A stretch of DNA of 64,000 nt from Clostridium sp. (lineage in GTDB: Bacteria; Bacteroidota; Bacteroidia; Bacteroidales; Muribaculaceae), in contig JAMPGR010000001.1 of NCBI GenBank assembly GCA_023663805.1, positions 620,733 to 684,732 of the forward strand, given 5' to 3'. Below are positions 41,768 to 58,134 of this stretch, piece after piece. The position numbers were made by a program, and so were the translations under genes. Numbering within the stretch: the stretch's first letter is position 1; each line of letters opens with the position of its first letter. The notes under the pieces were generated by a model that ran no database searches, had not been told where the DNA came from, and saw only the letters and a program-made list of their open reading frames with translations.

Positions 41768-41772
41768 GGTTG

Positions 41773-41855
41773 TGGGCGAAGATGGATTCGAACCACCGAA
41801 GGTATAAACCAGCAGATTTACAGTCTGCCCCATTTGGCCACTCTGGTATTCGCCC
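41773..41855 (-). tRNA. tRNA-Tyr (anticodon GTA)
   Basis: 83 bases with a 7-bp acceptor stem (GGGCGAA pairing with TTCGCCC), discriminator A, anticodon loop CTGTAAA on a GCAGA/TCTGC stem (anticodon at 41819-41821), a long class II variable arm, and T arm GGTGG-TTCGAAT-CCATC. CCA is not encoded. It is the first unit behind a consensus promoter and is followed after five bases by the start codon of the kinase gene. Confidence 0.95.
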
Positions 41856-42120: not shown

Positions 42121-42756
42121 ATGAAACGACTCGCAACTATCGTACTACTGTTCGTCGCGCTGATTTCGGGCATCGCCCCGCTCTCGGCGACAACCCCGAT
42201 TGTAGGCGATCCCGAACTGGATGTGGACCACATGGTCAGATATATTAGACAGCATAACAGCGATTTCCCGCGCGAAATCGCCGAGGTGTATTACGCCGTC
42301 GGCGAGCGCTACGGAATCCGCGGAGACATCGCCCTCTGCCAGGCCATAATCGAAACCGGCTGGTTTACATTCTGCGGCGGCACAGCCGTCACCCTCGAGC
42401 AGAACAACTTCTGCGGGCTCGGCGTTACGAAACTCGGCGTACGCGGCCTCGAGTTCGAGACAATCGAGGAGGGGGTTACGGCTCAGATCCAGCACCTGTA
42501 TGCCTACGCATGCAAGCGGCCGGTTCCTGCCGGGGAACAGATACTCGATCCCCGCTTCTCGCTCGTCACCCGCGGATCCGCCCCGACATGGGAGAAACTG
42601 AGCGGCCGCTGGGCAGCGAACCGCAACTACGGCCGGGACATCCTCCGGGTCTACACCCAGGCATGCGACTACAAACCTGAAAAACCCCGCCAGGAGAATC
42701 GCCGCTACATCCAGACCCCCTCAGGCGAAACCGTCGCAACCGCCTTCTTCGACTAA
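42121..42756 (+). CDS. Exported glucosaminidase-domain protein (GH73-like)
   Basis: 211 residues with a signal peptide to about residue 23. ALCQAIIETGWFTFCGGTAV is the LytG/FlgJ-type catalytic region, with the Glu as likely acid; NNFCGLG and EGVTAQIQHLYAYA are further GH73 marks, and TWEKLSGRWAANRNYGRDILRVY closes the domain. It likely cuts the GlcNAc-MurNAc bond of peptidoglycan in the periplasm. It diverges from the tRNA-Tyr/NamZ operon, whose exo-muramidase acts on the same polymer. The short C-terminal tail carries no known wall-binding module. Confidence 0.88.
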   Translation: MKRLATIVLLFVALISGIAPLSATTPIVGDPELDVDHMVRYIRQHNSDFPREIAEVYYAVGERYGIRGDIALCQAIIETGWFTFCGGTAVTLEQNNFCGLGVTKLGVRGLEFETIEEGVTAQIQHLYAYACKRPVPAGEQILDPRFSLVTRGSAPTWEKLSGRWAANRNYGRDILRVYTQACDYKPEKPRQENRRYIQTPSGETVATAFFD

Positions 42757-42952
42757 CGGCAGTAGCATAGGTAACTCAAGTTTCGGAGTTGGTATAATGA
42801 TTAGTACTTAGTGAATTGTATGTTTGCTAAGACTCGCGCGAATAGAGTTCCTCTGCATAACTTCTGCATACAAGCAGTCTATCGAGTTTCAGGGTGTCGC
42901 GCCGTCTGATTATTCGACCACTAACGTGGTCTGAATCTTTGGGCTATTCAGT

Positions 42953-42999
42953 CCGGGGGCTTTCGCCCCAGGCTACGATATTACACCGCTAACACGGTG
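42953..42999 (+). repeat. REP-like unit A (two adjacent hairpins)
   Basis: GGGGGCTTTCGCCCC forms one hairpin; CACCG-CTAACA-CGGTG forms the second, joined by AGGCTACGATATTA and followed by TTTTTTATATAA, which gives terminator potential. Just upstream, GACCAC-TAAC-GTGGTC and CTGAAT...ATTCAG add two more hairpins. It closely matches unit B in opposite orientation. Confidence 0.7.
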
Positions 43000-43065
43000 A
43001 TTTTTTATATAATAAGCACATCGAAGGCAATCCATGGCAAACGCTTATGTTTAAATCCGACAATG

Positions 43066-43111
43066 CACCGCGTCGCGGTGCCATAACGTAGCCGCGGGCG
43101 AAAGCCCGTGG
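43066..43111 (-). repeat. REP-like unit B, inverted copy of unit A
   Basis: Read on the minus strand it gives CACGGGCTTTCGCCCG, then CGGCTACGTTATGG, then CACCGCGACGCGGTG: the same two-hairpin plan and the same CTTTCGCCC and GGCTACG words as unit A. Such hairpin pairs are scattered in Bacteroidota genomes and may be moved by REP-associated transposases, none of which is encoded here. Another simple hairpin (GACCG...CGGTC) follows at 43133-43148. Confidence 0.65.
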
Positions 43112-43197
43112 TTTGCGTATAAAATTGATAAAGACCGCGTTATCGGTCGAATAATGTCGCATTTTTTTGCTCAGGAGTCCCCGTTTAGGGAATTAAA

Positions 43198-43260
43198 TCA
43201 TTGACAATAATCCATACCGAAACTTGAGTCATTGACAATAGTCCAGAACCGAAACTTGAG
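43198..43260 (+). repeat. Tandem duplication, 31/32 bp, of the element's right end
   Basis: Two consecutive copies of TCATTGACAATA(A/G)TCCA followed by ACCGAAACTTGAG (43198-43228 and 43229-43260), differing at a few positions and by one inserted base. Confidence 0.8.
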
Positions 43261-43311
43261 GAGGTCATCTCCTCTCGATAGGGAGTGCTTTTCTCTGGCG
43301 AGAGAAGATTT

Positions 43312-43370
43312 CTACGACGATATATTCCAGATTCGGGTAGACCTGGCGCGCGACAATCCGGATGGTCCGT
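43312..43370 (-). pseudogene. Fragment of a GT2 glycosyltransferase gene
   Basis: On the minus strand it translates to RIVARQVYPNLEYIVV, matching NVARQDYPNLEYIVVDG of the GT2 protein at 2962-3705. At the DNA level the two stretches (here and about 3563-3618) agree at most positions. Only about 60 bases remain; there is no start or downstream domain. Confidence 0.7.
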
Positions 43371-43795
43371 CCCGACATAAAACACCCGCCGACGTTATAT
43401 TTTACGGAATAAATGCCACGAAGAACGTCTAATCGAAAAATTATCATTATATTTGCACCGTCAATGGAGGAGAAATACCGTTGACAGGAAAAGCGTTTGC
43501 TTTCTTTCCCGAGTGATAAAATCGCCAAATTTTAAGTTCTGAGGGGAGAAGGATTAGACGCTCTTCTGTTTCGTCGTATATTTTCGAGGCCTCGAATGCC
43601 CCGCTGAAATACAACGGACAGTGGGGCATTTATTCTATCTTTTTCGGTCAGAACCAGGCGTTTGGCGATGCCCATCACTCCCGAAGAAGCGAAAAGTTCC
43701 CCACTTTTCTTTTATCTTAACCTAACGTACAATAATCGATCGCTGGATTCGGGATCTTGGCAGCATACAGGACAACAATTAACCGCATTCTGCCA
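43371..43795 (+). other. Non-coding leader before the phospho-signalling island
   Basis: No convincing gene. TATATTTG at 43448-43455 resembles a -7 element but has no -33 partner. A perfect 8-bp inverted repeat, AATGCCCC (43595-43602) and GGGGCATT (43623-43630), and the palindrome CGAGGCCTCG (43585-43594) could be a terminator or regulatory sites. The DNA is more AT rich than the genes around it. No clear promoter lies directly before 43796. Confidence 0.35.
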
Positions 43796-45298
43796 ATGGA
43801 AACGCTGAAAATAGGGAGAAGCTCCTCCAACGATTTGGTTTTGGACAATGACCCGACCGTATCGCGCCAGCACGCCGTCGTCACAATCCTCGACAACGGC
43901 ACGGCAACGATACGCGACCTGAACTCCACATCCGGAACATTTGTTGACAACAAACGGATCAGTGCTGAAACCCCCGTCACGCAGTCTTCACAAATCAAAC
44001 TCGGGAACACCGTTCTGACCCTCGGCCAGATTATGGCAACCAGGCGCAAAACGAAAGTACACCGGCCAAGCGGCATCTCGGCGTCGTCGGTTGCCCTGAC
44101 TTCGAAAAAAATCGTCGGGCGCGCTCCCTCGAACGATATCCCGATGTCGGCCGCTGACGTCAGTTCGTCCCACTGCGTCATAGGATTCGACTCCGACGGG
44201 AATCCCGCCATCGCAGACCTCGGCTCGAGCAACGGAACGTTCGTCAACGGGAACCGTATCTCCGGAGTGACCAGACTGAAAAAAGGGGATACTGTCCGTC
44301 TGGCCGCCAACACCCACCTGAACTGGGAAAATTACCTGAAGCCGAAAGGGAACCGGAAGATGACCATCGCAATCACATCGATTGTCGCTTCGCTGGCTGT
44401 CATCGCGCTTGTCGGAGTGATCGTCTGGAAAAACTGGAACCGCCAGCTTTCACCAGAAGAGATTTACGACAAATACCGCACGTCGGTCGTCATGATACTC
44501 AACTACAACTCATACGCGGTCAAACTCCACGGCAAATCCCCGAGCGACATCGACTCGCGCCTTGCCGTCATAGACAATGTCTATGTCAACAGCGACGGAG
44601 AGGTCGAATCGGGTATTTCAGGATCCTCCGGAACCGGATTCTTTATCTCGAAGGACGGGAAGATCATGACCAACAAACATGTCCTATATCCGATGGGGGA
44701 TGAAGAACAGAAAGCAAAAGAGAAAATCAAAGAGGCGATAACCAGCATGCTCTACAGCATCGCACGTTCGACCGGAGAATACGGCTACGCACAACTGGCG
44801 TCGGACATCGATGTCGAATATGTATTCAATTCGGTCGGCGTTGCCCGGAACGACACCCACGTCAGTTCGGCCGACGACCTGCTGAAAGCCACACCTATCA
44901 AGGGGAGCAAGGATGACGATGTCGACGTCGCGATCCTTCAACTGAACACGAAGACAACGCCCGAAGACGCCGTCATCGTCGATGTCGCGAACTTTTCCGA
45001 CCCGAAACACCGGAAAATAGGCAGCCGGATCTACACTATCGGATTCCCAAAGAATTTCGCCATCGGCAGTACCGCGGTCGGTCTCGAGGCAAACAACCAG
45101 AGCGGCGAAATCACCCAGGACCGCGGGGAGAATGTCTACGGACACAATATCACAATCCATCAGGGCGCAAGCGGATCACCCGTTTTCGACAGTTACGGAC
45201 AGTTCGCCGGAATCATCGTCTCGGGTTTCCTCGGCCTGTCGCAGGGTTACAACCATGCCGTCCAGCCCGAAAAGGCTTCCGAATTTGCAAACAAATAG
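43796..45298 (+). CDS. Transmembrane trypsin-like serine protease with two N-terminal FHA domains
   Basis: 500 residues from the ATG at 43796; the frame extends to a TTG at 43757, but METLKIGRSSSND is a natural FHA start. FHA1 (about 1-75: GRSSSNDLVL, SRQHAVV, NSTSGTFV) and FHA2 (about 95-170: GRAPSNDIPM, SSSHCVI, LGSSNGTFVNG) both keep the Arg and Ser of phosphothreonine binding. One membrane helix (about 194-215) separates them from a chymotrypsin-fold protease (about 225-500) with a likely triad His295 (TNKHVL), Asp377 (DVAIL) and Ser459 (GASGSP). I infer that the FHA domains face the cytoplasm and the protease the periplasm. It opens the seven-gene kinase/phosphatase/FHA group. Confidence 0.85.
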   Translation: METLKIGRSSSNDLVLDNDPTVSRQHAVVTILDNGTATIRDLNSTSGTFVDNKRISAETPVTQSSQIKLGNTVLTLGQIMATRRKTKVHRPSGISASSVALTSKKIVGRAPSNDIPMSAADVSSSHCVIGFDSDGNPAIADLGSSNGTFVNGNRISGVTRLKKGDTVRLAANTHLNWENYLKPKGNRKMTIAITSIVASLAVIALVGVIVWKNWNRQLSPEEIYDKYRTSVVMILNYNSYAVKLHGKSPSDIDSRLAVIDNVYVNSDGEVESGISGSSGTGFFISKDGKIMTNKHVLYPMGDEEQKAKEKIKEAITSMLYSIARSTGEYGYAQLASDIDVEYVFNSVGVARNDTHVSSADDLLKATPIKGSKDDDVDVAILQLNTKTTPEDAVIVDVANFSDPKHRKIGSRIYTIGFPKNFAIGSTAVGLEANNQSGEITQDRGENVYGHNITIHQGASGSPVFDSYGQFAGIIVSGFLGLSQGYNHAVQPEKASEFANK

Positions 45299-45325
45299 TC
45301 AATCAATCTAAATACAACCAAACAA

Positions 45326-45916
45326 ATGGCACCAAACAAACGCACCTGCCCAAACGGCCACAAGTATGACAGCTCGATCTACGGCGACAACTGCCCCTTC
45401 TGCCCGAGCCCGACACAACTGAACAACAGCACCGGCTACGACTCGCCCGGAGGACGCACCCAGGTCAACGGACCTTCAACCGAAGCAACGCGCCCGACCA
45501 TACCGGTCGGACCCGCTCCGGAACCCCCCGCAGGCGGAGGAGGCCACACGGTCATCCGCTCTCTCGACAGCAAAGATACCGACACCCCGGCAGGACGCCG
45601 TATCGTCGGTCTGCTCGTCTCCTTCTCCGCCAATCCCTGCGGAAAGGTCTACAACCTCTACGAAGGCCGCAACACAATCGGACGCGACATCACCAACGAC
45701 ATCGCCTTCCCCAACGACAACGCGATCTCCCAGCGCCACCTCGTCATCGTCTACCGTGCGTCTGACAACCGCTATCTGATGGAAGACCAGCTGACATCGA
45801 ACGGGACGTGGCTTAACGGCGAGACCGCCAACGACCGCGTCTCCCTCAACTCGGGCGACATCGTAGTCATCGGTGCAACCAAATTCGTATTCCTCTCTAT
45901 CCCGCAAGGACTCTGA
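45326..45916 (+). CDS. FHA-domain protein with N-terminal zinc-ribbon-like motif
   Basis: 196 residues. Cys8, His12, Cys23 and Cys26 (CPNGHKYDSS, DNCPFC) look like a small zinc-binding knuckle. A low-complexity Pro/Thr/Gly linker (about 30-80) leads to an FHA domain (about 105-192): GRDITNDIAF, ISQRHLVIVY, LTSNGTWLNG. There is no signal peptide or membrane helix, so it should be a soluble cytoplasmic adaptor that binds phosphothreonine. It is 27 bases after the protease gene and 5 bases before the phosphatase gene. The Thr-rich linker could itself be a kinase substrate; this is inference. Confidence 0.85.
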   Translation: MAPNKRTCPNGHKYDSSIYGDNCPFCPSPTQLNNSTGYDSPGGRTQVNGPSTEATRPTIPVGPAPEPPAGGGGHTVIRSLDSKDTDTPAGRRIVGLLVSFSANPCGKVYNLYEGRNTIGRDITNDIAFPNDNAISQRHLVIVYRASDNRYLMEDQLTSNGTWLNGETANDRVSLNSGDIVVIGATKFVFLSIPQGL

Positions 45917-45921
45917 ACGAT

Positions 45922-47388
45922 ATGAACCGACAGAACAACAATAACTACGATTACTGTATCCTCGGCGAAGCGACCGACGTAGGACAGCGTCGGTCGGCCA
46001 ACGAGGACAGTTGCGGCAACGGACTGACGATCAATGGTCTTGTTGCGACCGTATGCGACGGTATGGGCGGACATGTCGGCGGCGCGACAGCTTCGAAAAT
46101 CGCAGTCGAAACAATCTTCGACGTTCTGAACAACCGCTTCTTCGACGATCCGCGCGAAGCGATCGGCGTCGCTATCGACCGTGCCAACGAAGCAATCCTC
46201 CAGTATGCCGCCGAGCACCCCGAACTGCAGGGGATGGGATCGACATGCGTGCTGCTGATTGTCCGCGACGGGAAAGTCTACATCGGACATGTCGGTGACA
46301 GCCGTATCTATCTGATCCGCCGACACACAATCAAACAACTGACGACGGACCACTCCTACGTCCAGATGCTCGTCGACTCCGGGACGATAACTCCCGAGGA
46401 GGCCGAACGCCATCCCCGCAAGAACGAGATTACCAACGCACTCGGCATCCCGACGATGCAACCCGCTACAGTCAAGCCCGAACCGATCACTCCCGAAATC
46501 GGCGACTGCTTCCTGCTCTGTTCCGACGGTCTGTCGGGAATGGTACCGAACAACAAGATCGAGCGCGTTATCAGCGACCAGCGTAACATGCATCTCCAGG
46601 ACCGCGCCGAAAAACTGGTCCGTATGGCCAACGAGGCCGGAGGTGTCGACAATATCAGCGTCGAACTCGTCGAATTTGCCGACCTCCCCGGAACGAAACA
46701 GAATCTTCTGGCTGAGAAGAAAAAAATGGCGACAATCGGAATCTGCGCCGCATTGTTAGTCATCGCGCTTCTCGCCGTCTGGTTCGTCTTTATCCGCGAC
46801 ACCAAATCGACCGATCCGGCAACCGGCGACGAGACACAGACAGCGGACACAACGGCTGTCAGGACCGATACCGTCGCTAAACCCGGCGGCGAAATCATCG
46901 GCGCCATTCCCAACGACCAGACAATCGATCTTGGCAAACTGGGTATGACTCCCAAACAAGCCTTTATGACACTCAATTTCAAAAAGGATGGAACTGAGAT
47001 AACGACTTCGGCCGGAACCATTTCCAACGGATTTATTGGAGATCCTATGAAGATCGACTTGGAAGATGACAGACTTAAACGTAACTTAACGGATGACGGT
47101 AAGAAATGTGTCGTCACAGTATTAATAAATAAGGCTCCTAATCCGAAGGATGGTTTTGTGATTGTCATACCCTCGACAGACGGAAAATCGAAACTGACAT
47201 TGAAATTCCAGCTCGTTGAAACACAAAAGCCTGCGGTCACGCCTGCGACACCCGAAAAACCGGATGAGGTAAAGCCGAACATAGACGATAACCCTCAGGA
47301 TATTACAACTCCGGAAAAAAAGATCGATGGGGACTCCAATAAAGAAACTGACAAGAACGACAAAAACAATCCCCCCATAGCAATATGA
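45922..47388 (+). CDS. PP2C-family Ser/Thr phosphatase with membrane helix and extracytoplasmic tail
   Basis: 488 residues. The PPM domain (about 8-255) has all main motifs: SANEDS, VCDGMGGHVGG, GHVGDSRIYLI, LTTDHS, LLCSDGLSGMV and GGVDNISV; the Asp residues bind the two catalytic metals. A membrane helix (about 271-292) follows, then a 195-residue outside part whose first half (about 315-430) has a beta-sandwich look and whose end is rich in Pro, Asp, Lys and Asn. It would reverse phosphorylation by the two kinases encoded next. The last 80 codons are less GC biased than the catalytic part, so the tail may have been added separately. Confidence 0.9.
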   Translation: MNRQNNNNYDYCILGEATDVGQRRSANEDSCGNGLTINGLVATVCDGMGGHVGGATASKIAVETIFDVLNNRFFDDPREAIGVAIDRANEAILQYAAEHPELQGMGSTCVLLIVRDGKVYIGHVGDSRIYLIRRHTIKQLTTDHSYVQMLVDSGTITPEEAERHPRKNEITNALGIPTMQPATVKPEPITPEIGDCFLLCSDGLSGMVPNNKIERVISDQRNMHLQDRAEKLVRMANEAGGVDNISVELVEFADLPGTKQNLLAEKKKMATIGICAALLVIALLAVWFVFIRDTKSTDPATGDETQTADTTAVRTDTVAKPGGEIIGAIPNDQTIDLGKLGMTPKQAFMTLNFKKDGTEITTSAGTISNGFIGDPMKIDLEDDRLKRNLTDDGKKCVVTVLINKAPNPKDGFVIVIPSTDGKSKLTLKFQLVETQKPAVTPATPEKPDEVKPNIDDNPQDITTPEKKIDGDSNKETDKNDKNNPPIAI

Positions 47389-47391
47389 TCC

Positions 47392-48675
47392 ATGCCGACA
47401 ATCAATAACTACAGTTACGATGAGAAGCCGATCGGCGAGGGCGGAATGGGATGCGTGTTCCGCGCGACGAGCCCCGCAGGGAAAAAAGTCGCCCTGAAAA
47501 TGCTGAAGACGCAGTTTGCATCCATGCCGACTTTCAGCACTTTCTTCCAGACCGAGGCCGCTGCCATACGCCGGATGAGCCACCCTAACGTCGTCGGGAT
47601 CGAAGGGGAGCCCTTTTCGGACAGCGCCGGCAATCTCTATCTCCCGATGCAGTTCATCGAGGGGCAGACAATAGAGAAGCGGATCAAAACGCTGCTAGCC
47701 AACGGCCAGCGTATGGAAGAATCGGAAGCAACGGAGATCATGAAAAAAATACTCTCGACCTTCGAGTATATCCACAGCCAGGGGGTTATCCACCGCGATA
47801 TCAAACCGTCGAACATCATGCTCAAACCCGACGGCGAGATTTGCGTCATCGACTTCGGCATCGCCCGCGACTCTCGCCTCCCGACCGGCTACACAATCGG
47901 CCACAGCGTCGGAACCGACGGATATATGAGCCCCGAGCAGGTCAACGGCCTGAACATAGACCATCGGACCGACATCTACTCCCTCGGGTGTCTGCTCTTC
48001 TACATGATGACAGGAACACACGCGATCAAGAAAAAGGATAACGACCACGACACCCGCGTCGCGATTCTGAACGACACGATCCCCCAACCCCGCAGCCTCC
48101 GCCCCGACATCTCGGAGCGAATGGAGAAAATCATCATGAAATCTACCGACAAGGATATGCGGGTCCGCTACAAATCGGCCGAAGATTTTCGCCGCGCACT
48201 CGAACCGGCGGCCGAAACGAGCCATACGTTCGTCCAGGGAGTCGATATCACCGTCGGCCGCAACAGCGACAACGATATCGTCGTCCCGAACAACTATGTC
48301 TCGGGCCACCACCTTGTCATTTCTTATAATTTCGCTTGCGGCAACAGTATCATATCTATCCTCGACAGGAGCACCAACGGAACGGGAATCGAGTATCCCG
48401 ACTCAATGAAATTCCTCAAGCACAACACCCACACGATCCCTTACGACATCTACAACCAGCCCTCGTCGGGTCTTCCCGGAGTCTTGCTCTCGGGACGCGA
48501 GGAATGTATGCTCGACTGGGACCGCGTCATCGGCGAAATCAAATCGAGGCTGAATGTCGCGCCGCCGCCACCGCCGCCGACACCAGTCACCGAACCGAAG
48601 CCGAAGAGTCGGCTCTGGCTGATCGTCCTGGCTGTTGTCGCTGTCGCAGCAGCCGTTGCCATCCTGCTGTCATGA
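47392..48675 (+). CDS. Tail-anchored Ser/Thr protein kinase with C-terminal FHA domain
   Basis: 427 residues. The kinase domain (about 8-275) has the Gly loop IGEGGMGCVF, Lys36 (VALK), HRDIKPSNIML, DFGIA and a GTDGYMSPEQ activation-segment end, so it looks active. An FHA-like domain (about 280-360) follows: ITVGRNSDNDIVV, VSGHHLVISY and DRSTNGTGI. A run of seven prolines links it to a single C-terminal membrane helix of about 20 residues that ends the protein, a tail anchor facing the cytoplasm. A kinase and FHA on one chain is unusual and suggests self-recruitment after phosphorylation. It starts 3 bases after the phosphatase gene. Confidence 0.9.
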   Translation: MPTINNYSYDEKPIGEGGMGCVFRATSPAGKKVALKMLKTQFASMPTFSTFFQTEAAAIRRMSHPNVVGIEGEPFSDSAGNLYLPMQFIEGQTIEKRIKTLLANGQRMEESEATEIMKKILSTFEYIHSQGVIHRDIKPSNIMLKPDGEICVIDFGIARDSRLPTGYTIGHSVGTDGYMSPEQVNGLNIDHRTDIYSLGCLLFYMMTGTHAIKKKDNDHDTRVAILNDTIPQPRSLRPDISERMEKIIMKSTDKDMRVRYKSAEDFRRALEPAAETSHTFVQGVDITVGRNSDNDIVVPNNYVSGHHLVISYNFACGNSIISILDRSTNGTGIEYPDSMKFLKHNTHTIPYDIYNQPSSGLPGVLLSGREECMLDWDRVIGEIKSRLNVAPPPPPPTPVTEPKPKSRLWLIVLAVVAVAAAVAILLS

Positions 48676-48718
48676 CAAACAATTATACACTTTCAATCAT
48701 CCAAATCAAACATAGCCT

Positions 48719-49246
48719 ATGAGAACAATAACAATCGGACGGTCATCCTCTTGCGACATTGTCGTCCCCGACAACAGTGTCAGCCGCATACACGCCGAGA
48801 TCAGCATGATCGACGGGAAATATCTCTTCCGCGACACCAGCAGCAACGGCTCGACCCTGAACGGGGAATATATCTCGAACCGCGCCGTCGGCATCGCCCC
48901 GGGCGCACCCGTTCTGCTCGCCAACCGCATTCCCCTCCCCTGGGCCCAGATCTACGCCCTGCTTCCGATCAGAAACGGCGGCAGCAACCGCGTATACGAA
49001 CCGGAGGGGAGAACAAACGTCGGACTTGCAGCGCCCCCGGCTCCGGCTCCCGCAATTCCGGTTTATTCTGACGACGATCCTTCGCCGGTCGGATGGTGTA
49101 TCCTCTCCTTCCTGATTCCGCTTGTCGGATGGATCCTTTACTTCAGTTGGAAAAGCACAAAACCGCAGAAAGCATCGGCCGTATGCACATGGGCCTGGAT
49201 CGGCTTCGGGCTGAATGTCATCCTGTCGATAGCGAGCATCGGCTGA
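48719..49246 (+). CDS. FHA-domain protein with two C-terminal membrane helices
   Basis: 175 residues. The FHA domain begins at residue 1: ITIGRSSSCDIVV, SRIHAEISM, DTSSNGSTLNG. A linker rich in Pro/Ala (about 100-120) leads to two hydrophobic helices (about 124-142 and 155-174) separated by a short basic loop (KSTKPQKAS), similar to small DUF4190-like membrane modules. The FHA domain should be cytoplasmic. It may tether phosphorylated partners to the membrane. Gaps are 43 bases before and 64 after. Confidence 0.85.
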   Translation: MRTITIGRSSSCDIVVPDNSVSRIHAEISMIDGKYLFRDTSSNGSTLNGEYISNRAVGIAPGAPVLLANRIPLPWAQIYALLPIRNGGSNRVYEPEGRTNVGLAAPPAPAPAIPVYSDDDPSPVGWCILSFLIPLVGWILYFSWKSTKPQKASAVCTWAWIGFGLNVILSIASIG

Positions 49247-49310
49247 CGCCTGCTCCCCGGCATATCATCAATATCACACAATCGAAATCGTATCATACAC
49301 AACCATCACC

Positions 49311-52300
49311 ATGATAGGAAAAGAAATCCTTAACTACCGGATCGTCAAACTGATTGGCGAGGGTGGAATGGGCGCGGTCTATCTCGCCGAGCACAAATAT
49401 ATCCGCCAGCAGAAGGTCGCGATCAAGGTTCTCCATAACGGCGTCGTCAACGACTATACCCGCGAGAAACTGACACAGGAGGCCGAGCACCTCGCCTCGC
49501 TTGACCATCCGAACATCGTCAAACTGATCAACTACCACATCGATGACGAAGGGAACATCTACCTGATCGAGGAGTTCGCCGACGGAGTCACTCTCGAAAA
49601 GTTCATCAACGAGGTCAACGGTCTCGTTGTCGAAGACCGCGTCTGTGCCCTCTTCGAACCAATCCTCGACGGCGTCGGGTATGCCCACCAGAAAGGGATC
49701 ATCCACCGCGACCTGAAGCCGACCAATATCATCATCACCAAGGAGGGCACCCCGAAAATCCTCGACTTCGGCATCGCGACAATTATGAACGAGGATAACG
49801 ACGAGGAGAAGTTCGTCGTCGGAACCCCCTCCTACATGAGTCCCGAGCAGGTCCGCGGCCAGCACCTCGACCAGCGCTCCGACATCTATGCCCTCGGCGT
49901 TATCCTCCATCAGATGATGACCGGGAACGCCCCCTACGACACGACGACCATGTCTGAACACGAAATCAACGAGAAGGTCGTCAACGAGCCTCTCGCTCCG
50001 ATGAAGTCGTTCTACAAATATGTCAGTCCCGAGACACAGAAGGTCGTCGACAAGGCTACCGCAAAGAATCCCGACGACCGCTACCAAAACTGCAACGATT
50101 TCCGCAAGTCGCTCCACCGTGCGATTTATCCCCCGAAGACCCCGAGATGGGTATGGTGGACCGCTGCGGCTGTTCTCTGCGTCCTGATTGGAGGCGGCCT
50201 CTGGTGGTGGGACTACACCCGGACAAAGGTCACTTACTATAAAGACTACACCGAAGTATGGGGCGAACCGGTCGGCGTCGGAAAACTGTCGTCGTCGGAC
50301 TACTCCCACATCCACCGCGCCTACCGGTTCGAGACTTCGCGCGGGAAAGTTCGCCGTATGACCCACGTCAACTCGATCGGGACAATTATCCCCGACAACG
50401 AATCGGAACGCAAGGACCGCACAATCGACGCCCTCTACACCTACACCCCTGAGGGGAAGGTCGCCCGCGTCAAGGTCCTCGACCACAACGGCCGCGTCCA
50501 GTATGTCAAGTCCTATAGCGAAAACCTGAAAACCGTTGTTTTCCAATTCGACGACGAACACGGAACAGAGAAAACCCTCGGAGCCGACATGCTCGGTGCC
50601 ACAAACGCCTTCGACAACCGCAGTATGGACAACCGCGGAAAAATCTCGCGCTACCACCAGACCTACGACGACAACGGCTATGTCACCAGAACCGAATATG
50701 CCGGGCTCTACAATATGCGTGTCAGCGACGGCGACAATATCTACGGTCGCGAATATATCCGTGACGACAAAGGACGTATCGCCGAAGAACGTTATCTCGG
50801 ACTCGACGGACAGCCGATCTCGACAAGATGGGGCCTCGGGAAGAAGCGGTTCAAATATGACGACAACGACAATATGACCGAGGTCGTCTACCTGACCGTC
50901 GACGACGAGCCTTCAATCGAATTCCCTTCCGGAACAGCCGTCTACCAGCTCGATTACGACAAATACGGCAATGTCGCGGAAGTGCGTCTGCTCAACGGCG
51001 ACGGTGAACTCTATATCCCGGCGAGATACGGCTACTCGTTCCAGAAGACCAGTTACGACGACAAAGGATACATCAACCGTCAGGAACATTACGGCCCGGA
51101 TCAGCAGTTGATCAATCTCCCCGACGGATATGCGATTTTCGAGACAGAATGTGACGACAACGGTTTTTTCAACGTCATGAGATTCTACGACACCGAAGGA
51201 AATCTGACCCGTACGAAAAGCAACGCGGCGATTACCCGCTTCGTCAACGACGCGAAAGGAAACCAATTGACGGCCGAGAATTTCGACGAAAACGACAAAC
51301 CGCTGATGACAAAAGAGGCGTTTTTCCGTTCTGTCTGCGAGTATGACACACTCGGAAATATGATTTCCGCATTCTACTACGACACCGACGGCAAACTGAC
51401 GGCCACTCCGGGTTTCAACGGCGGCGCCGGAGCTCTGTTCGAATATGACGATTTCAACCGTATCGTAAAGCGGACAAATCTTAACTCCGATTCTGTTGTC
51501 GCGCCCAGTGACCTCGGTATAACTGTCGATACACGTACATTCGATGCCCGCGGCAATATGACCTCATATGCTTTCTTCGAAGATGTCGAATGCAAGAAAC
51601 CCCAGGAGAATATCAACGGAATCGCAGGCAGCAACATGACTTACGACGACAACGGAAATCTCAGTATGCAGACATTCTTCGGAAAGGACGGCCAGTTAAA
51701 GTTCGACGAGGACCATGTCGCCATCTATCGCTGCACATACGACGACCGTGGCAACAAAACCTCTGTCAGATATTTCGACACTGCCGACAAGCCAGTCCTC
51801 AGCACCGACCGCTATGCCGGGAAAATCTGGGAGTATGACTCTATCGGAAACAGTACTATGGAGAAATATATCGGAGTCGACGGCACTCTCGCTGTTGGAT
51901 ATCTCTATACGAGATATAAATACGACAAGGATAACAACGTTATCGAAGAGGCTCTGTTCGACCGCGGCGACAAACCGGGTACAAACAACTGGGGATACCA
52001 CATCAAGCGTATGAAATATGACTCGCGCCGACAGTGTACCGAGGAATCTTATTTCGACAAAGAAGACAAACCGACCCTGCACAAGATCAACCGCTTTGCA
52101 ACACAACGAATGAAGTACGACAACCTGGGTAATGTCATTGAGGTGGCATTCTTCGGAACCGACGGCAAACCGACAGACTGCAATTCGAATTACTCGATCC
52201 ATCGCTCGGAATATGACGCCATGGGACGCGTCATCCACCAGACCTTCTACGACACCGAAGGGAAACCGACCGATCCGTCGAAAATGGTTCCCGAAGGATT

Positions 52301-53123
52301 CTCAGGATATGACAACAACGGCAACATAAATTATGTGGCTTCCGGCGACGGCAAAGGGAACCTGATCTTTAACCCGCAGATTGGAGCATGTATAATGCGG
52401 TTCGAACACGACCCGAAAGGTCGCGTTCTGACCCAGACATTCTTCGACAAGGATGACAAACCGACAGTCTCGACCGTCAACGGATTCCATAAACTGGAGA
52501 ACAAATATGATGTAGCCGGAAATATCCTCGAAACCGCTTATTTCGACGCCGACGGGAAACCGATGCTGAAGCGCCCCGAAGGATACCACAAACTGGCCAA
52601 GACCTACGACGAACTGAACCGTCCGGTCTCCGAGACATACTACGGGGTCAACGGCAGCCAGATAACGCCTGCCGGATCGAATTTCTCGAAAATTACATAT
52701 CAGTATACCGACGAGACCCAGACCGCAAAGCGTCTTAGGGCATATACCCCTTCCGGAGCGCTCGCGATGACTCTCATATGGAACGGCAGTCAGTGGGTTA
52801 TCGATTCCAGCACAATCGATGAACCGCAACAAGACTGGCAGGCAATGATTACCGGAATGAACGCCGAGTGTCCCTACGATTTCGGTGAGGACGCTATGGG
52901 TATCATCCTGACAAGTTGCAAGGTGACGGGCGCGAAGAGTTGCCAGCTCAATATGCAGACCCCCGAGTCGCGCTACGATATGTCCGACGAACTCTACCAG
53001 GCTTATATCGCACTTGTCAACGAATTCGGCTCGAACTTCAAATCATCGGTTCCGTCAGGCGTCAGTATGACACTCATCCTGAAAGACAAACGCGGCCGCG
53101 AACTGTTTAACAAAACTTTCTAA
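49311..53123 (+). CDS. Transmembrane Ser/Thr kinase with a large YD-like repeat ectodomain
   Basis: 1270 residues. Kinase domain (about 8-270): IGEGGMGAVYLAE, Lys39 (VAIK), HRDLKPTNIII, DFGIA and VGTPSYMSPEQVRG, all intact. One membrane helix (about 281-302, WWTAAAVLCVLIGGGLWWW). The outside part is a repeat array from about residue 450 to 1120, some 21 units of about 31-36 residues with consensus YDxxGNxxExxYFDxDGKP, followed by a Ser/Thr-containing C-terminal domain of about 150 residues with two Cys residues (ECPYD; TSCKV). The repeats resemble RHS/YD or MORN-like strands and may form a long beta structure that senses wall or extracellular ligand. The small secreted protein encoded next is its likely partner. 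Confidence 0.9.
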   Translation: MIGKEILNYRIVKLIGEGGMGAVYLAEHKYIRQQKVAIKVLHNGVVNDYTREKLTQEAEHLASLDHPNIVKLINYHIDDEGNIYLIEEFADGVTLEKFINEVNGLVVEDRVCALFEPILDGVGYAHQKGIIHRDLKPTNIIITKEGTPKILDFGIATIMNEDNDEEKFVVGTPSYMSPEQVRGQHLDQRSDIYALGVILHQMMTGNAPYDTTTMSEHEINEKVVNEPLAPMKSFYKYVSPETQKVVDKATAKNPDDRYQNCNDFRKSLHRAIYPPKTPRWVWWTAAAVLCVLIGGGLWWWDYTRTKVTYYKDYTEVWGEPVGVGKLSSSDYSHIHRAYRFETSRGKVRRMTHVNSIGTIIPDNESERKDRTIDALYTYTPEGKVARVKVLDHNGRVQYVKSYSENLKTVVFQFDDEHGTEKTLGADMLGATNAFDNRSMDNRGKISRYHQTYDDNGYVTRTEYAGLYNMRVSDGDNIYGREYIRDDKGRIAEERYLGLDGQPISTRWGLGKKRFKYDDNDNMTEVVYLTVDDEPSIEFPSGTAVYQLDYDKYGNVAEVRLLNGDGELYIPARYGYSFQKTSYDDKGYINRQEHYGPDQQLINLPDGYAIFETECDDNGFFNVMRFYDTEGNLTRTKSNAAITRFVNDAKGNQLTAENFDENDKPLMTKEAFFRSVCEYDTLGNMISAFYYDTDGKLTATPGFNGGAGALFEYDDFNRIVKRTNLNSDSVVAPSDLGITVDTRTFDARGNMTSYAFFEDVECKKPQENINGIAGSNMTYDDNGNLSMQTFFGKDGQLKFDEDHVAIYRCTYDDRGNKTSVRYFDTADKPVLSTDRYAGKIWEYDSIGNSTMEKYIGVDGTLAVGYLYTRYKYDKDNNVIEEALFDRGDKPGTNNWGYHIKRMKYDSRRQCTEESYFDKEDKPTLHKINRFATQRMKYDNLGNVIEVAFFGTDGKPTDCNSNYSIHRSEYDAMGRVIHQTFYDTEGKPTDPSKMVPEGFSGYDNNGNINYVASGDGKGNLIFNPQIGACIMRFEHDPKGRVLTQTFFDKDDKPTVSTVNGFHKLENKYDVAGNILETAYFDADGKPMLKRPEGYHKLAKTYDELNRPVSETYYGVNGSQITPAGSNFSKITYQYTDETQTAKRLRAYTPSGALAMTLIWNGSQWVIDSSTIDEPQQDWQAMITGMNAECPYDFGEDAMGIILTSCKVTGAKSCQLNMQTPESRYDMSDELYQAYIALVNEFGSNFKSSVPSGVSMTLILKDKRGRELFNKTF

Positions 53124-53136
53124 AAAAGATAGAACT

Positions 53137-53640
53137 ATGAAAAAGTTAATCCTACTGATCTTCTGTCTTCTGGCTGTAGCCGGACAGGCCTTTGCGGATC
53201 TGAACGCCGAACAGTTGAAGGTTCGAAAGGACCTGACCCAGTTTCTCAAGGAGGAGGGTTTCCAGCCGGAACTCGACTCCGACGGCGACATCAAAGTCAA
53301 GATTCAGGGCACGACATGCTTTGTCAGCGTTGTCGAGAACAATACCAGCCCTATGTTCATAACAATCTCGTCGTACTTCTCCAAACCTTCGGAATATTCG
53401 CCCCTCGCCGTCAAAATCGCAACGGTCGAACTTAACCTCTACAAGGGGGTCAAGGTGCAGATTCTCGACAACTCGGTCAGAATTGTCGGCGAGATGTATG
53501 TCCGGAACTCCGAGCCGTTCAAACAGGCCTTCTATAAACTTGTCGACGTTATGAGCGATGTCAAGGGGGACCTCGATCAGGAATTCCAGAACGCCCAGAA
53601 GGAACTCGACCAATACTGCAACGGCGGATCTACAATCTGA
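53137..53640 (+). CDS. Small exported protein, YbjN/type III chaperone-like fold (tentative)
   Basis: 167 residues. Signal peptide to about residue 20 (AGQAFAD). The mature part has an alpha-beta pattern (RKDLTQFLKEEGFQPELDSDG, IKVKIQGTTCFVSV, then three strands and a long terminal helix ending QNAQKELDQYC), which recalls YbjN-like proteins related to secretion chaperones; this assignment is by eye only. It starts 13 bases after the repeat kinase and ends the island before a terminator, so it probably acts in the periplasm on the ectodomains of the island's membrane proteins. Confidence 0.7.
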   Translation: MKKLILLIFCLLAVAGQAFADLNAEQLKVRKDLTQFLKEEGFQPELDSDGDIKVKIQGTTCFVSVVENNTSPMFITISSYFSKPSEYSPLAVKIATVELNLYKGVKVQILDNSVRIVGEMYVRNSEPFKQAFYKLVDVMSDVKGDLDQEFQNAQKELDQYCNGGSTI

Positions 53641-53673: not shown

Positions 53674-53710
53674 AACGGCGTCCGGCTTCAACCCCGGCCG
53701 CCGTTTTGTT
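53674..53710 (+). terminator. Terminator of the phospho-signalling island
   Basis: AACGGCG-T-CCGG (53674-53685) pairs with CCGG-C-CGCCGTT (53694-53705), 8-base loop, followed by TTGTT. The convergent ATPase gene ends about 60 bases further on. Confidence 0.7.
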
Positions 53711-53772: not shown

Positions 53773-55125
53773 CTAAAGAAGTCCCGCCATGTATATCGGA
53801 AGGTAGATGATATCCTGTTCCTTTCTGAGGTCTTTCGTGTAGAGCAGGTATCTCGTTTTTATACGTGATGAATATTTCCGGCTGAAAAGATCGAGCGATT
53901 TGTGGCTCTTGTAACCGGAAGACTTTACTTCAATTGGACATATCCTGTGGCCGCTCAAGATAAGAAAATCGATTTCATAGAACCGGGGCTTTTCGCTTTC
54001 GGGCGTCTGTTCTCTGAAAGTATAGTAGTACAGGGAATGTCCGGCCGAACGCAGCAGCTGGGCGGCAATATTTTCGTAGATATATCCCAGATCAACCGGC
54101 AATTTGTCGGCCAAAAGTTTCCGGTAGATTATATTGTCGGTGTAATCCCCATCCAGAAATGCCAACGTTATGAACAGCCCGGTATCAGCCAGGAACATCT
54201 TGAAATAGTCGGGATTGGCGTGGAGCGCCAGGCCGACATTCGGATCATCCGCATGATATGCGGGGTTAACGATTTTCGACTCGATGATATCTGAAAACAA
54301 TTCGCCGAGGCGGTCTATGCGTCCCCTTTCGATTGCGCTTCCGACTTTGTATCTCATCGTGTTGCGTGACAGCTCCGAAGGAATGGACCTGAGTATTGTG
54401 GAGGCTCGACCAAGCGGGTCTATTTTTCTCAAGTCCTCGTCGTAGAGGCGCAGTATGTCCCGCTTGACCCTGTCGACCTCCGCGAAGTCGTTGGTGTCGA
54501 GATAGGTGTTTATGGCCTGGGGCATACCTCCGACCAACATATACAGCCGGAACTCCTCCATAAGGTGGCGGTTCATCGAATCACCCATGGGTGTTAAAGT
54601 CTCGAAGGAATGGCGGATAAATTCAAATTTTGCCTTCTTGCCTGTCGCCCACAGAAATTCTTCGAAATCCATCGGAAACATATCGAGGTGTTCCTCCTCG
54701 CTCGGAATCAGAATGTCTGTTACATTTTTTTTTATCGATATGAGAGAGCCTGTTTCCAGATAGTCGTAGCGTCCGTCTTTGACGAGATGCTTGATTGCCT
54801 GACGTGCTTTAGGACAGAACTGGACTTCGTCGAAGATGATTAGAGACCTTCCGGTCGCGAGCGATTTCCCCGTGAATACCTGAAGTTTCAGAAAAAATCT
54901 GTCGAGGTCGCCGAGGCTGTTGAACAAATCGATTATATCCTGTTCCGCGGTTGAGAAGTCGATAATCAGATAGTCTTCATACTCGTTCTTTGCGAATTCT
55001 TCGGCAATCGTTGATTTTCCGATACGTCTGGCTCCTTCGATCAGCATTGCAGTCTTGAAGGATGTCTTGTTTTTCCAGTCTAACAGTTTGTTGTATATCT
55101 TTCGTTTGAAGATCCGTCCATTCAT
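53773..55125 (-). CDS. ATP-binding protein with DUF4143 domain
   Basis: 450 residues from the ATG at 55125; the frame runs further upstream, but the promoter and repeats lie there. Walker A IEGARRIGKST, Walker B SLIIFDEVQF, then the AAA_14 region with YLETGSLISI and the C-terminal DUF4143 domain (KMFLADTGLFITLAFL, YIYENIAAQLL, FYEIDFLILSGHRICPIEVKSSG), whose end is nuclease-like (D...E-K). These are widespread, often multicopy ATPases of unknown role. It is convergent with the signalling island and codirectional with the DUF4332 gene. Codon use is less GC rich than in the neighbours (many ATA, TTT, AGA), suggesting a different history. Confidence 0.88.
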   Translation of the reverse strand: MNGRIFKRKIYNKLLDWKNKTSFKTAMLIEGARRIGKSTIAEEFAKNEYEDYLIIDFSTAEQDIIDLFNSLGDLDRFFLKLQVFTGKSLATGRSLIIFDEVQFCPKARQAIKHLVKDGRYDYLETGSLISIKKNVTDILIPSEEEHLDMFPMDFEEFLWATGKKAKFEFIRHSFETLTPMGDSMNRHLMEEFRLYMLVGGMPQAINTYLDTNDFAEVDRVKRDILRLYDEDLRKIDPLGRASTILRSIPSELSRNTMRYKVGSAIERGRIDRLGELFSDIIESKIVNPAYHADDPNVGLALHANPDYFKMFLADTGLFITLAFLDGDYTDNIIYRKLLADKLPVDLGYIYENIAAQLLRSAGHSLYYYTFREQTPESEKPRFYEIDFLILSGHRICPIEVKSSGYKSHKSLDLFSRKYSSRIKTRYLLYTKDLRKEQDIIYLPIYMAGLL

Positions 55126-55152
55126 GGTTTTGTAATTGTTTGATTCAGTATG

Positions 55153-55183
55153 CAAAATTAGCCATAATGACAGAAATTCCAAA
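55153..55183 (-). promoter_or_regulatory. Promoter of the DUF4143 ATPase gene
   Basis: On the minus strand TTTG (55183-55180), 19-base spacer, TAATTTTG (55160-55153), 28 bases before the ATG. The -33 element lies inside the first of three 33-bp repeats. Confidence 0.8.
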
Positions 55184-55256
55184 ATGTTTTTAGCCGAAGA
55201 TGACAAGAATTCCAAAATGTTTTTGGCCTAAAATGACAAAAATTCCAAAATGTTCA
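55167..55256 (-). repeat. Three 33-bp direct repeats overlapping the ATPase promoter
   Basis: Units start at 55167, 55200 and 55233 (the last is partial). On the plus strand each reads ATGACA, two or three variable bases, ATTCCAAAATGTT, then in the first two TTTAGCC/TTTGGCC. Period 33, close to three helical turns. They look like iterated protein-binding sites upstream of the ATPase gene. Confidence 0.8.
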
Positions 55257-55884: not shown

Positions 55885-58134
55885 ATGAACCGCTTATTAA
55901 AAACGTATCTGACTATACTCGGTCTGGTGGCGGCCTTCGCCGCCGATGCTGCCGGGTCAGCCGAGGCCTCCGACACGCTCCAGCTCGGGGAGGTCTCTGT
56001 GACCGCCATAAAACAGAGCCGCTTCCTCGGCAACCAGGCTGTCGCCTACACGACCGTCTCCGCCGAGGAGATTCGCCGCCAGAATATCGTCAATATGAAG
56101 GATGTCAGCGAAATCGCCCCGAATTTCTATATTCCGGCCTACGGTTCGCGCATGACTTCGTCGATCTATGTCCGCGGAATCGGCGCCCGCATCGACCAGC
56201 CTGTCGTAGGGCTGAATGTCGACAACGTTCCGTTTCTGAACAAAGACAACTACGACTTCGACCTGACTGACATCGCCCGGATAGAGATTCTCCGCGGTCC
56301 GCAGAGCACGCTCTACGGCCGCAACACGATGGGGGGTCTGGTCAATATCTATACGCTCTCGCCGTTTGTCTACCAGGGGGGACGCGTCATGGCCGAGGGG
56401 GGTAATGGGCCGATGATGAGGATGTCGGTCGGCTACTACCACCGCTTCTCCGCGCGTCTGGCGATGTCATGGAACGCAAACTTCAACTATGTCGGCGGTT
56501 ACTACCGGAATGAATTCGCTAATGGCGAGGATGTCGGGATGGAAAAGAATTTCGCAGCGCGATGGAAAATCTGCGCCCGACCCTCGGAAACCGTAACAAT
56601 CGAGAATATCGCTGCCTTCGGCGTTGCACGCCAGGGGGGATATCCCTATGCCTACAAACTCTCGGGCGAGATCAACTATAACGACACTTGCTTCTACCGC
56701 CGCAACTCCTTCAGCGACGGTCTGACTGTCAACTGGGATCCGGGGAGTTTCTCGCTGTCGAGCATCACGAGTCTCCAGACTATCGACGACAATATGACTC
56801 TCGACCAGGATTTCCTCCCGCTCGACTATTTCACCCTGACGCAGAAACGCCGCGAATGGGCCGTGACCCAAGACTTCGTCGGAAAGGGCTCGGCGGGAAT
56901 CTACAGTTGGCTCGGCGGTCTGTTCGGCTTCTACCGCCACACCTCGATGGATGCCCCCGTCACGTTCAAGGGCCACGGTATCAAGACCCTGATCGAGGAC
57001 AAACGTAACGAACAGAATCCCGATTACCCGGTCCGATGGCGCGATCCGGAGTTTGTACTAGGGAGCCATTTCACATATCCGGTTGCGGGAGCCGCTGTCT
57101 ACCACCGCAGTTCCCTTCGTCTCGGAGCGTTCACTCTCGACGCCGGGTTCCGCCTCGATTACGAACACGCCGCGCTCGACTACCGAAGCACCTGTTCGAC
57201 CGCCTACGACGTTCTCCACACCTCGTCCGACGGCGCCGAGGAGGTCTACCGTCATCAGGATATCGACATCGATGACCGCGGACACCTGAGCCACGACTAC
57301 CTCCAGTTCCTCCCGAAGTTCTCGGCGACATGGCACATCAGGGGGATGCGCGAGTCGAATCTCTACGCCTCCGTCGCGAAAGGCTACAAATCGGGAGGAT
57401 TCAACACCCAGATGTTCAGCGATGTTCTCCAGCAGAGACTGATGCGCGAACTCGGCCTCGGAATGAACTACGACATCGATGATATCGTCGGATACAAGCC
57501 GGAGAAGAGCTGGAACTACGAGGTCGGTGCCCATGTCGAATGTGGCGGCGGAAAGGTCGTGACAGACCTGGCTCTTTTCTATATCGACTGCCGCGACCAG
57601 CAACTGACGATGTTTCCCGACGGAACAACGACCGGACGCATCACGACAAACGCCGGAAAGACCCGCAGCATAGGCGGCGAACTGTCGACGACTTTCCGAC
57701 CTTCCGACCACTGGACCTTCCGCGCCAGTTACGGCTTCACCGACGCCCGCTTCGTCCGCTTCTACAACGGGAAGGATGACTTCGCCGGAAAACGCGTCCC
57801 CTACGCCCCGCGCCATACCCTCTTCGCCGGCCTGACCTACGGCAGCAACCTTCGCTGCTGGATCGACCGGATCGAGGCGACGGCGAGTATTCGCGGTGTC
57901 GGATCAATCTACTGGGACGAGGAAAACACATCGCGCCAGGGGTTCTACGCGACGGGGGCTGTCAACGTGACGCTGTCACACCGCGATATGTCCCTTTCGC
58001 TATGGTGTGAGAACCTGACCAACACGCGCTACGATGTCTTCAGTTTCAAATCGATCGGAAACGAATTCGTCCAACGGGGACTTCCTCGTCGCTACGGTGT
58101 CACGCTCCGCGTCAACTTCGAATCCGGAAACTGA
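55885..58134 (+). CDS. TonB-dependent receptor (siderophore/cobalamin-type architecture)
   Basis: 749 residues. Signal peptide to about residue 23; no carboxypeptidase-like extension, so the plug follows directly: LGEVSVTAIKQSR (TonB-box region), SSIYVRGIGARIDQPVVGLNVD, IARIEILRGPQSTLYGRNTMGGLVNI. The barrel ends in an aromatic-poor but regular strand (GVTLRVNFE). YASVAKGYKSGGFN is a common motif of FecA/FepA-like receptors, so iron complexes or another small cofactor are likelier than polysaccharide. A lipoprotein gene follows after 37 bases and is probably its partner. Confidence 0.88.
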   Translation: MNRLLKTYLTILGLVAAFAADAAGSAEASDTLQLGEVSVTAIKQSRFLGNQAVAYTTVSAEEIRRQNIVNMKDVSEIAPNFYIPAYGSRMTSSIYVRGIGARIDQPVVGLNVDNVPFLNKDNYDFDLTDIARIEILRGPQSTLYGRNTMGGLVNIYTLSPFVYQGGRVMAEGGNGPMMRMSVGYYHRFSARLAMSWNANFNYVGGYYRNEFANGEDVGMEKNFAARWKICARPSETVTIENIAAFGVARQGGYPYAYKLSGEINYNDTCFYRRNSFSDGLTVNWDPGSFSLSSITSLQTIDDNMTLDQDFLPLDYFTLTQKRREWAVTQDFVGKGSAGIYSWLGGLFGFYRHTSMDAPVTFKGHGIKTLIEDKRNEQNPDYPVRWRDPEFVLGSHFTYPVAGAAVYHRSSLRLGAFTLDAGFRLDYEHAALDYRSTCSTAYDVLHTSSDGAEEVYRHQDIDIDDRGHLSHDYLQFLPKFSATWHIRGMRESNLYASVAKGYKSGGFNTQMFSDVLQQRLMRELGLGMNYDIDDIVGYKPEKSWNYEVGAHVECGGGKVVTDLALFYIDCRDQQLTMFPDGTTTGRITTNAGKTRSIGGELSTTFRPSDHWTFRASYGFTDARFVRFYNGKDDFAGKRVPYAPRHTLFAGLTYGSNLRCWIDRIEATASIRGVGSIYWDEENTSRQGFYATGAVNVTLSHRDMSLSLWCENLTNTRYDVFSFKSIGNEFVQRGLPRRYGVTLRVNFESGN

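Follow-up and report, generated by a model that had tools for sequence, protein, structure and literature searches.

The stretch of DNA analysed here, referred to below as the window, comprises 64,000 nucleotides (nt) of contig JAMPGR010000001.1 (positions 620,733 to 684,732, forward strand) from a 2.58-Mb draft genome of the Muribaculaceae deposited as Clostridium sp. (GCA_023663805.1). At window positions 43796–53640, its + strand carries seven intact codirectional open reading frames (ORFs), named g1 to g7, which are separated by gaps of 27, 5, 3, 43, 64 and 13 nt. Pfam searches and residue checks identified two serine/threonine (Ser/Thr) kinases, a PP2C phosphatase, a trypsin-like protease and five FHA domains distributed over four proteins (two on g1 and one each on g2, g4 and g5), and a hydropathy scan placed transmembrane (TM) helices in g1, g3, g4, g5 and g6 and a signal peptide on the small exported protein g7. 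The gene set thus agrees with a preliminary description of the locus, which had also noted the fusion of the protease to two FHA domains.

The first gene, g1 (43796–45298), encodes two FHA domains (43808–44005 and 44111–44302; Pfam FHA, E 7.8e-39), a TM helix (approximately 44357–44420) and a trypsin-like protease domain (44630–45214; Trypsin_2, 1e-17). Its His-Asp-Ser triad, which is retained in all 15 aligned loci, predicts an active enzyme. Like MarP and DegS-type proteases, g1 would be a membrane-anchored trypsin-like periplasmic protease, but it differs from them by its two FHA domains on the cytoplasmic side, by the lack of a PDZ domain in Pfam searches and by scores far under the cut-off for every curated HtrA/DegS/MarP-type family in NCBIfam. 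The product of g2 (45326–45916) is a soluble adaptor with a zinc-ribbon-like N-terminus and an FHA domain (45674–45874; 1.1e-13), whose Cys/His motif, CPNGH...CPFC, has 27 matches among ORFs of related loci. A PP2C domain (PP2C_2, 1.1e-17; 243.4 bits with the NCBIfam Stp1/IreP-type PP2C model, cut-off 230) is followed in g3 (45922–47388) by a TM helix near residue 267 and an extracytoplasmic C-terminal part. Next, g4 (47392–48675) combines a Ser/Thr kinase (47422–48174; Pkinase, 1.5e-49) with an FHA domain (48247–48384; 3.7e-8) and a C-terminal TM anchor, and g5 (48719–49246) consists of an FHA domain (48728–48889; 6.3e-15) and two TM helices.

The largest gene, g6 (49311–53123), encodes a receptor kinase with a catalytic domain (49335–50087; Pkinase, 3.1e-55), a TM helix and an extracytoplasmic region of about 970 residues. 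This ectodomain starts with a juxtamembrane domain of about 150 residues (50211–50654; residues 301–448), delineated by profile matches described below, continues with RHS/YD-type beta-hairpin repeats of a roughly 32-residue period (50655–52836) and ends in an alpha/beta domain (52837–53120) with the order helix, two strands, helix, two strands in an AlphaFold2 model. The repeats are recognized by Pfam RHS_repeat (25.3 bits, cut-off 22) and NCBIfam YD_repeat_2x (41.8 bits, cut-off 15.8), and their match among Protein Data Bank (PDB) sequences is the Rhs protein RhsA (7q97; 1.8e-6). Foldseek searches with the model retrieved Rhs cores, teneurins and Tc subunits (best match 8qja, E 1.3e-30), although the model was built from three sequences with a predicted template-modelling score of 0.43, and the template-modelling scores of the matches are low (best about 0.27 by query length), values that do not establish a closed shell. 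Profiles and model together assign the ectodomain to the RHS/YD, teneurin-like repeat class with a specific juxtamembrane domain. It shares the long run of YD beta-hairpins with RHS/YD proteins, teneurins and Tc toxin subunits (8qja, 7q97, 6fb3, 4igl) and the membrane anchoring with teneurins, but differs in its own juxtamembrane and C-terminal domains and in having no recognized toxin C-terminus and no match to the RHS core models of Pfam and NCBIfam.

The last gene, g7 (53137–53640), scores just under the cut-off of the Pfam family TY-Chap1 (25.9 versus 27 bits). Its AlphaFold2 model (predicted local distance difference test score 78) shows the element order a-bbb-a-bb-a, as in YbjN and type III chaperones, and the leading Foldseek matches are YbjN (6vu7), AmyR and type III secretion chaperones (best E 1.6e-4), so that the predicted fold of g7 is that of YbjN, the TY-chaperones and the class I type III chaperones (PF10722, PF22551, 6vu7). 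Unlike YbjN and the class I type III chaperones, g7 carries a signal peptide and neighbours an envelope kinase. TY-Chap families have been proposed to act as peptide-binding chaperones (PMC9503650).

Conservation of the gene order was examined with the g1 protease as bait in 149 Muribaculaceae genomes, with up to 20 kb read around each match. Some match was found in 41 of these genomes, and the full protein in a handful only. The relatives fall into three arrangements. Type I loci have the order of the window: a protease with two FHA domains and a TM helix, a zinc-ribbon-like FHA protein, PP2C, kinase-FHA, an FHA protein with two TM helices, and the receptor kinase. This six-gene order is complete in six genomes (G000; G004, locus L116; G023, L117; G135, L118; G002, L119; G959, L228), each of another Muribaculaceae genus including that of the window, with a protease identity of 31–46% in the other five, and partial in L120, L038 and L042. 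Type III, a rearranged version with the parts of type I that occurs in ten loci (L141, L142, L229, L230, L231, L232, L234, L235, L242, L244), begins with an FHA protein, kinase-FHA, an FHA-TM-protease, a secreted protein and PP2C-TM, followed by an FHA-TM protein, the receptor kinase and then a YbjN-like protein or a further kinase. Type II loci contain the protease, PP2C, kinases and FHA proteins, lack a g6-type receptor kinase and have a WG-repeat protein as the next gene where this was tested (L121, L126, L155). The C-terminal alpha/beta domain of the ectodomain is kept in type I and most type III loci. Relatives of g7 occur in L228, L042, L141, L142, L229, L230, L232 (two copies) and L233, and in an upstream position in L116; g7 is a frequent but optional operon partner. 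In one of these loci, an in-frame stop interrupts the receptor kinase gene of genome G022 and leaves two ORFs (L142, 1048–4722). The window's own genome also contains a second small cluster with a Ser/Thr kinase, an FHA protein and a MORN-repeat gene (L140, contig C12, 637–5796).

The partners of the receptor kinase are conserved with it: PP2C, FHA-TM-protease and kinase-FHA adjoin it in 16 of the 17 readable receptor-kinase loci. A comparison of pairwise identities over 15 loci revealed that the protease, PP2C, kinase-FHA and receptor kinase, the four large proteins, diverge in a correlated manner (Spearman 0.66–0.85), to a degree that none of 2000 label permutations reached. The correlation also holds when the nine type III loci are taken by themselves (rho 0.52–0.84), and among the six type I loci, which provide few points, the two kinases co-diverge with rho 0.92. 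The kinase Lys, HxD and DFG motifs, the PP2C Asp residues and the trypsin His, Asp and Ser are all retained in the 15 aligned loci, despite identities down to about 25–30%.

From the hydropathy scan, both kinases, the catalytic part of PP2C and all FHA domains are predicted to be cytoplasmic, and the g1 protease, the g6 ectodomain, the C-terminal part of g3 and g7 to be periplasmic. The FHA and protease parts of g1 homologues lie on opposite sides of the single TM helix, and the ectodomains of g6 relatives start directly behind theirs. Since g1 and g6 have one TM helix each and the host is Gram-negative, the protease and the ectodomain would reside in the periplasm rather than on the cell surface, and the surface-facing kinase of the preliminary description becomes a predicted periplasm-facing one.

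The g6-type ectodomain is not confined to kinases. It is present on TIR-TM proteins (L183, L237–L241, L243) and on nSTAND1-TM proteins (L184, L245–L247), which are about 1000–1340 residues long and have a single TM helix. In BLASTP, the g6 ectodomain and the TIR protein of L183 align at 24% identity (E 9e-30) in about 800 columns that begin at residue 1. A profile made from the juxtamembrane part of the kinase proteins alone served as a test free of circularity. It matched all five tested TIR-TM proteins (domain independent E-values of 1e-16 to 1.6e-8) and three nSTAND-TM proteins (5e-5 to 4e-4), where these E-values relate to a small sequence set and reversed or shuffled control sequences gave E ≥ 1.1; two of the five nSTAND proteins tested (L184 and L192) were unmatched. 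In each TIR or nSTAND protein found, the match begins immediately past the TM helix. The link to nSTAND proteins is weaker than that to TIR proteins. Among 397 genomes of the family, 30 matched the ectodomain profile, as did 12 of 395 from the phylum; about 18 of the 397 have the kinase version (a count combined from several searches). The locus is absent from most congeneric species. Flanking genes differ between type I loci and include, for example, S-adenosylmethionine (SAM) synthetase, an esterase, a sigma factor, a peptide transporter and candidate helicase or AAA genes, which is the behaviour of an accessory unit.

The interpretation that we favour, and to which we give about an even chance of being correct, is that the operon is an inner-membrane Ser/Thr phospho-signalling module in which an outside-in receptor kinase acts through an FHA/PP2C relay on a periplasmic protease under inside-out control. 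The RHS/YD ectodomain of g6 would sense a periplasmic or envelope cue, and the g6 kinase would phosphorylate threonines on g4, on g5 and/or on g1 in its cytoplasmic part. Once phosphorylated, these threonines may be bound by the FHA domains of g1, g2, g4 and g5, so that a membrane complex forms, which PP2C (g3) would reset. Phospho-binding at the two FHA domains of g1 might alter the state or clustering of this protein and thereby control its periplasmic trypsin-like domain. The topology suggests both directions of the signal, inward via g6 and outward via g1, whose FHA domains would control its own protease. Finally, g7 is probably a peptide-binding protein of the periplasm whose target lies in the ectodomain, the protease or a protease substrate. 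The seven products might form the closed circuit that the preliminary description envisaged. To our knowledge, Ser/Thr kinase signalling has hardly been studied in gut Bacteroidales. The locus is self-contained: one operon supplies a sensor, a writer, readers, an eraser and an enzyme that may be the output, and a route from the periplasm through a cytoplasmic phospho-relay back to a periplasmic protease would, if true, represent a new two-way circuit design. A literature search found no description of the locus, which is weak evidence because subscription journals were mostly outside the search.

Several observations weigh against this interpretation. Within the six type I loci, again few points, the identities of the protease correlate with those of neither kinase (rho 0.02–0.06). 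The exception among the 17 readable receptor-kinase loci, L236, contains kinases but none of these partners, which indicates that the receptor kinase can also work outside the gene set. No g7 relative was found in the complete type I loci L117 and L118, and a locus from the genus of the window (L232, 10351–20000) contains two tandem pairs of a receptor kinase and a YbjN-like protein, which suggests the ectodomain, and not the protease, as the possible partner of g7.

A broader proposal, which we regard as possible rather than probable, is that the RHS/YD ectodomain and its juxtamembrane domain constitute a general receptor module of Bacteroidota that is attached through a single TM helix to a Ser/Thr kinase, a TIR domain or an nSTAND NTPase. 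Such a module might be a bacterial analogue of Toll- and teneurin-like receptors, with the kinase version relaying through FHA and PP2C proteins back to a periplasmic protease. A common ectodomain would tie classical phospho-signalling to bacterial immune-type receptors, and our literature search found no published description of a receptor family in which kinase, TIR and nSTAND proteins share it.

The sharing with TIR and nSTAND1, which are conflict-typical domains, and the sporadic distribution in family genomes make an inter-bacterial conflict or anti-phage role a serious rival, albeit a doubtful one. The ectodomain would here be an envelope danger sensor, and the kinases and protease would cause growth arrest or envelope damage, comparable to the kinases of KKP, PD-T4-6 and MADS. 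The nSTAND locus L184 is surrounded by TIR-FGE, SIR2-TIR, CHAT and FHA/trypsin genes, and candidate defence genes adjoin both the window locus (PDC-S01) and L228 (PDC-M16A). However, no defence gene was found in the scanned flanks of four of the six type I loci, the operon contains no toxin, nuclease or NADase effector, and a search of viral contigs found no relative of the locus. The preliminary description had recognized no described defence system, and PADLOC searches support this: PD-T4-6, mad6 and similar models match the kinases over the catalytic domain only, and the similarity as a whole is limited to generic kinase and protease cores. The KKP module resembles the operon in having two kinases and a PP2C, with one kinase bearing an FHA domain (PMC11341870). 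It differs by its cold-shock domain, which neither kinase of the operon has, and by its order PP2C-kinase-kinase, as opposed to PP2C-kinase-FHA-kinase; the operon, moreover, is membrane-bound, contains additional FHA adaptors and a protease, and was not seen in a prophage.

The operon could also be a housekeeping controller of cell-wall growth, which we consider unlikely. Its model would be the PknA/PknB-PstP-FhaA/FhaB cluster of Actinobacteria, in which two kinases, a membrane PP2C and FHA adaptors are encoded together (PMC6554272); the operon shares the kinase pair, one of them with a TM helix and an extracytoplasmic sensor, as well as the TM-bearing PP2C and the FHA proteins. The sensor, however, is of the RHS/YD rather than the PASTA type: g6 has no PASTA match, and the PknB_PASTA model reaches 262 bits against a cut-off of 450, over the kinase part only. 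The candidate output is a protease instead of RodA/PbpA; RodA and penicillin-binding protein genes are absent from the window locus, and none was recognized in the scanned flanks of its relatives. With five FHA domains and an accessory distribution, most congeneric species lacking the locus, the operon further departs from a core system.

Regulation of a secretion apparatus, as in the PpkA-PppA-Fha threonine phosphorylation pathway of the type VI secretion system (T6SS), is very unlikely. That pathway comprises a kinase with N-terminal catalytic, TM and periplasmic parts, a PP2C and an FHA acceptor (PMC5995506, PMC12607579), a triad identical in kind to that of the operon with the same kinase layout. 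The predicted type III-chaperone-like fold of g7 also speaks for such a role, as do four type II loci (L123, L124, L125, L128) that are preceded by a TssR-VWA-like gene. Here L125 also encodes an ABC ATPase and an FtsX permease, and genes at the corresponding positions of the other three loci are presumed to do so too. These four loci lie in genomes in which no TssC was found. The sheath protein VipB was absent from all 18 carrier genomes examined, with E. coli as positive control, and the Bacteroidales TssC from 12 carriers, whereas the same model found it in four further Bacteroidales genomes. There are no secretion genes in the locus, the phosphatase has a TM helix and FHA is fused to the protease. 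Membership in a T6SS was therefore rejected, in agreement with the preliminary description, which had recognized no secretion-system genes beside the locus. Neither of the two outcomes that would have spoken against that description, a lack of co-conservation across genomes or a constant location within a known T6SS or defence locus, was observed. By analogy, the operon seems to function most like the PknA/PknB-PstP-FhaA/FhaB cluster and the T6SS threonine pathway, as a member of neither. As a separate observation, clusters with many FHA, PP2C and kinase genes in rumen Bacteroidales contain FHA-FtsK/SpoIIIE fusions with an EssC-like layout (L048, 13861–17163; L059, 7790–11104), which could represent an undescribed secretion-like system.

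Chance adjacency or a decaying cluster, for which the slightly lower guanine-cytosine (GC) content of the operon might speak (0.539 versus 0.569 in the rest of the window), is refuted by the recurrence of the six-gene order in five distant genera besides that of the window, the intact catalytic residues and the co-divergence. This GC offset lies within about one standard deviation of 1-kb windows and is not diagnostic, so a foreign composition of the operon is not supported either.

The surroundings of the operon contain several further features. Its flanking genes (a glucosaminidase at 42121 and a TonB receptor at 55885) lie on separate contigs in most congeners, and no clean empty site was found. 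A tRNA-Tyr gene (41772–41855), about 2 kb upstream, is a possible integration landmark. The long intergenic region 5' of g1 (42757–43795) contains an imperfect 81-nt inverted repeat (42909–42989/43075–43155) and copies of CTCAAGTTTCGG / CCGAAACTTGAG at 42775, 43217 and 43249, and may be a rearrangement site. Promoter and terminator patterns have no more matches in the region than in shuffled sequences; one pattern match 3' of g7 (53683–53700, + strand) is a possible intrinsic terminator. Directly past the operon, on the opposite strand, lies the AAA_14/DUF4143 ATPase gene assigned by PADLOC to the candidate defence family PDC-S01 (53773–55215). One weak match to a phage record is confined to the FHA domains. 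The only protease-bearing plasmid relative is the complete type II locus L155 on a 140-kb plasmid record of Phocaeicola massiliensis (OY726067.1). Near another type II locus, a radical-SAM-like protein is encoded beside a Cys-rich repeat protein (L126, 454–2396), an arrangement that resembles a peptide-modification pair.

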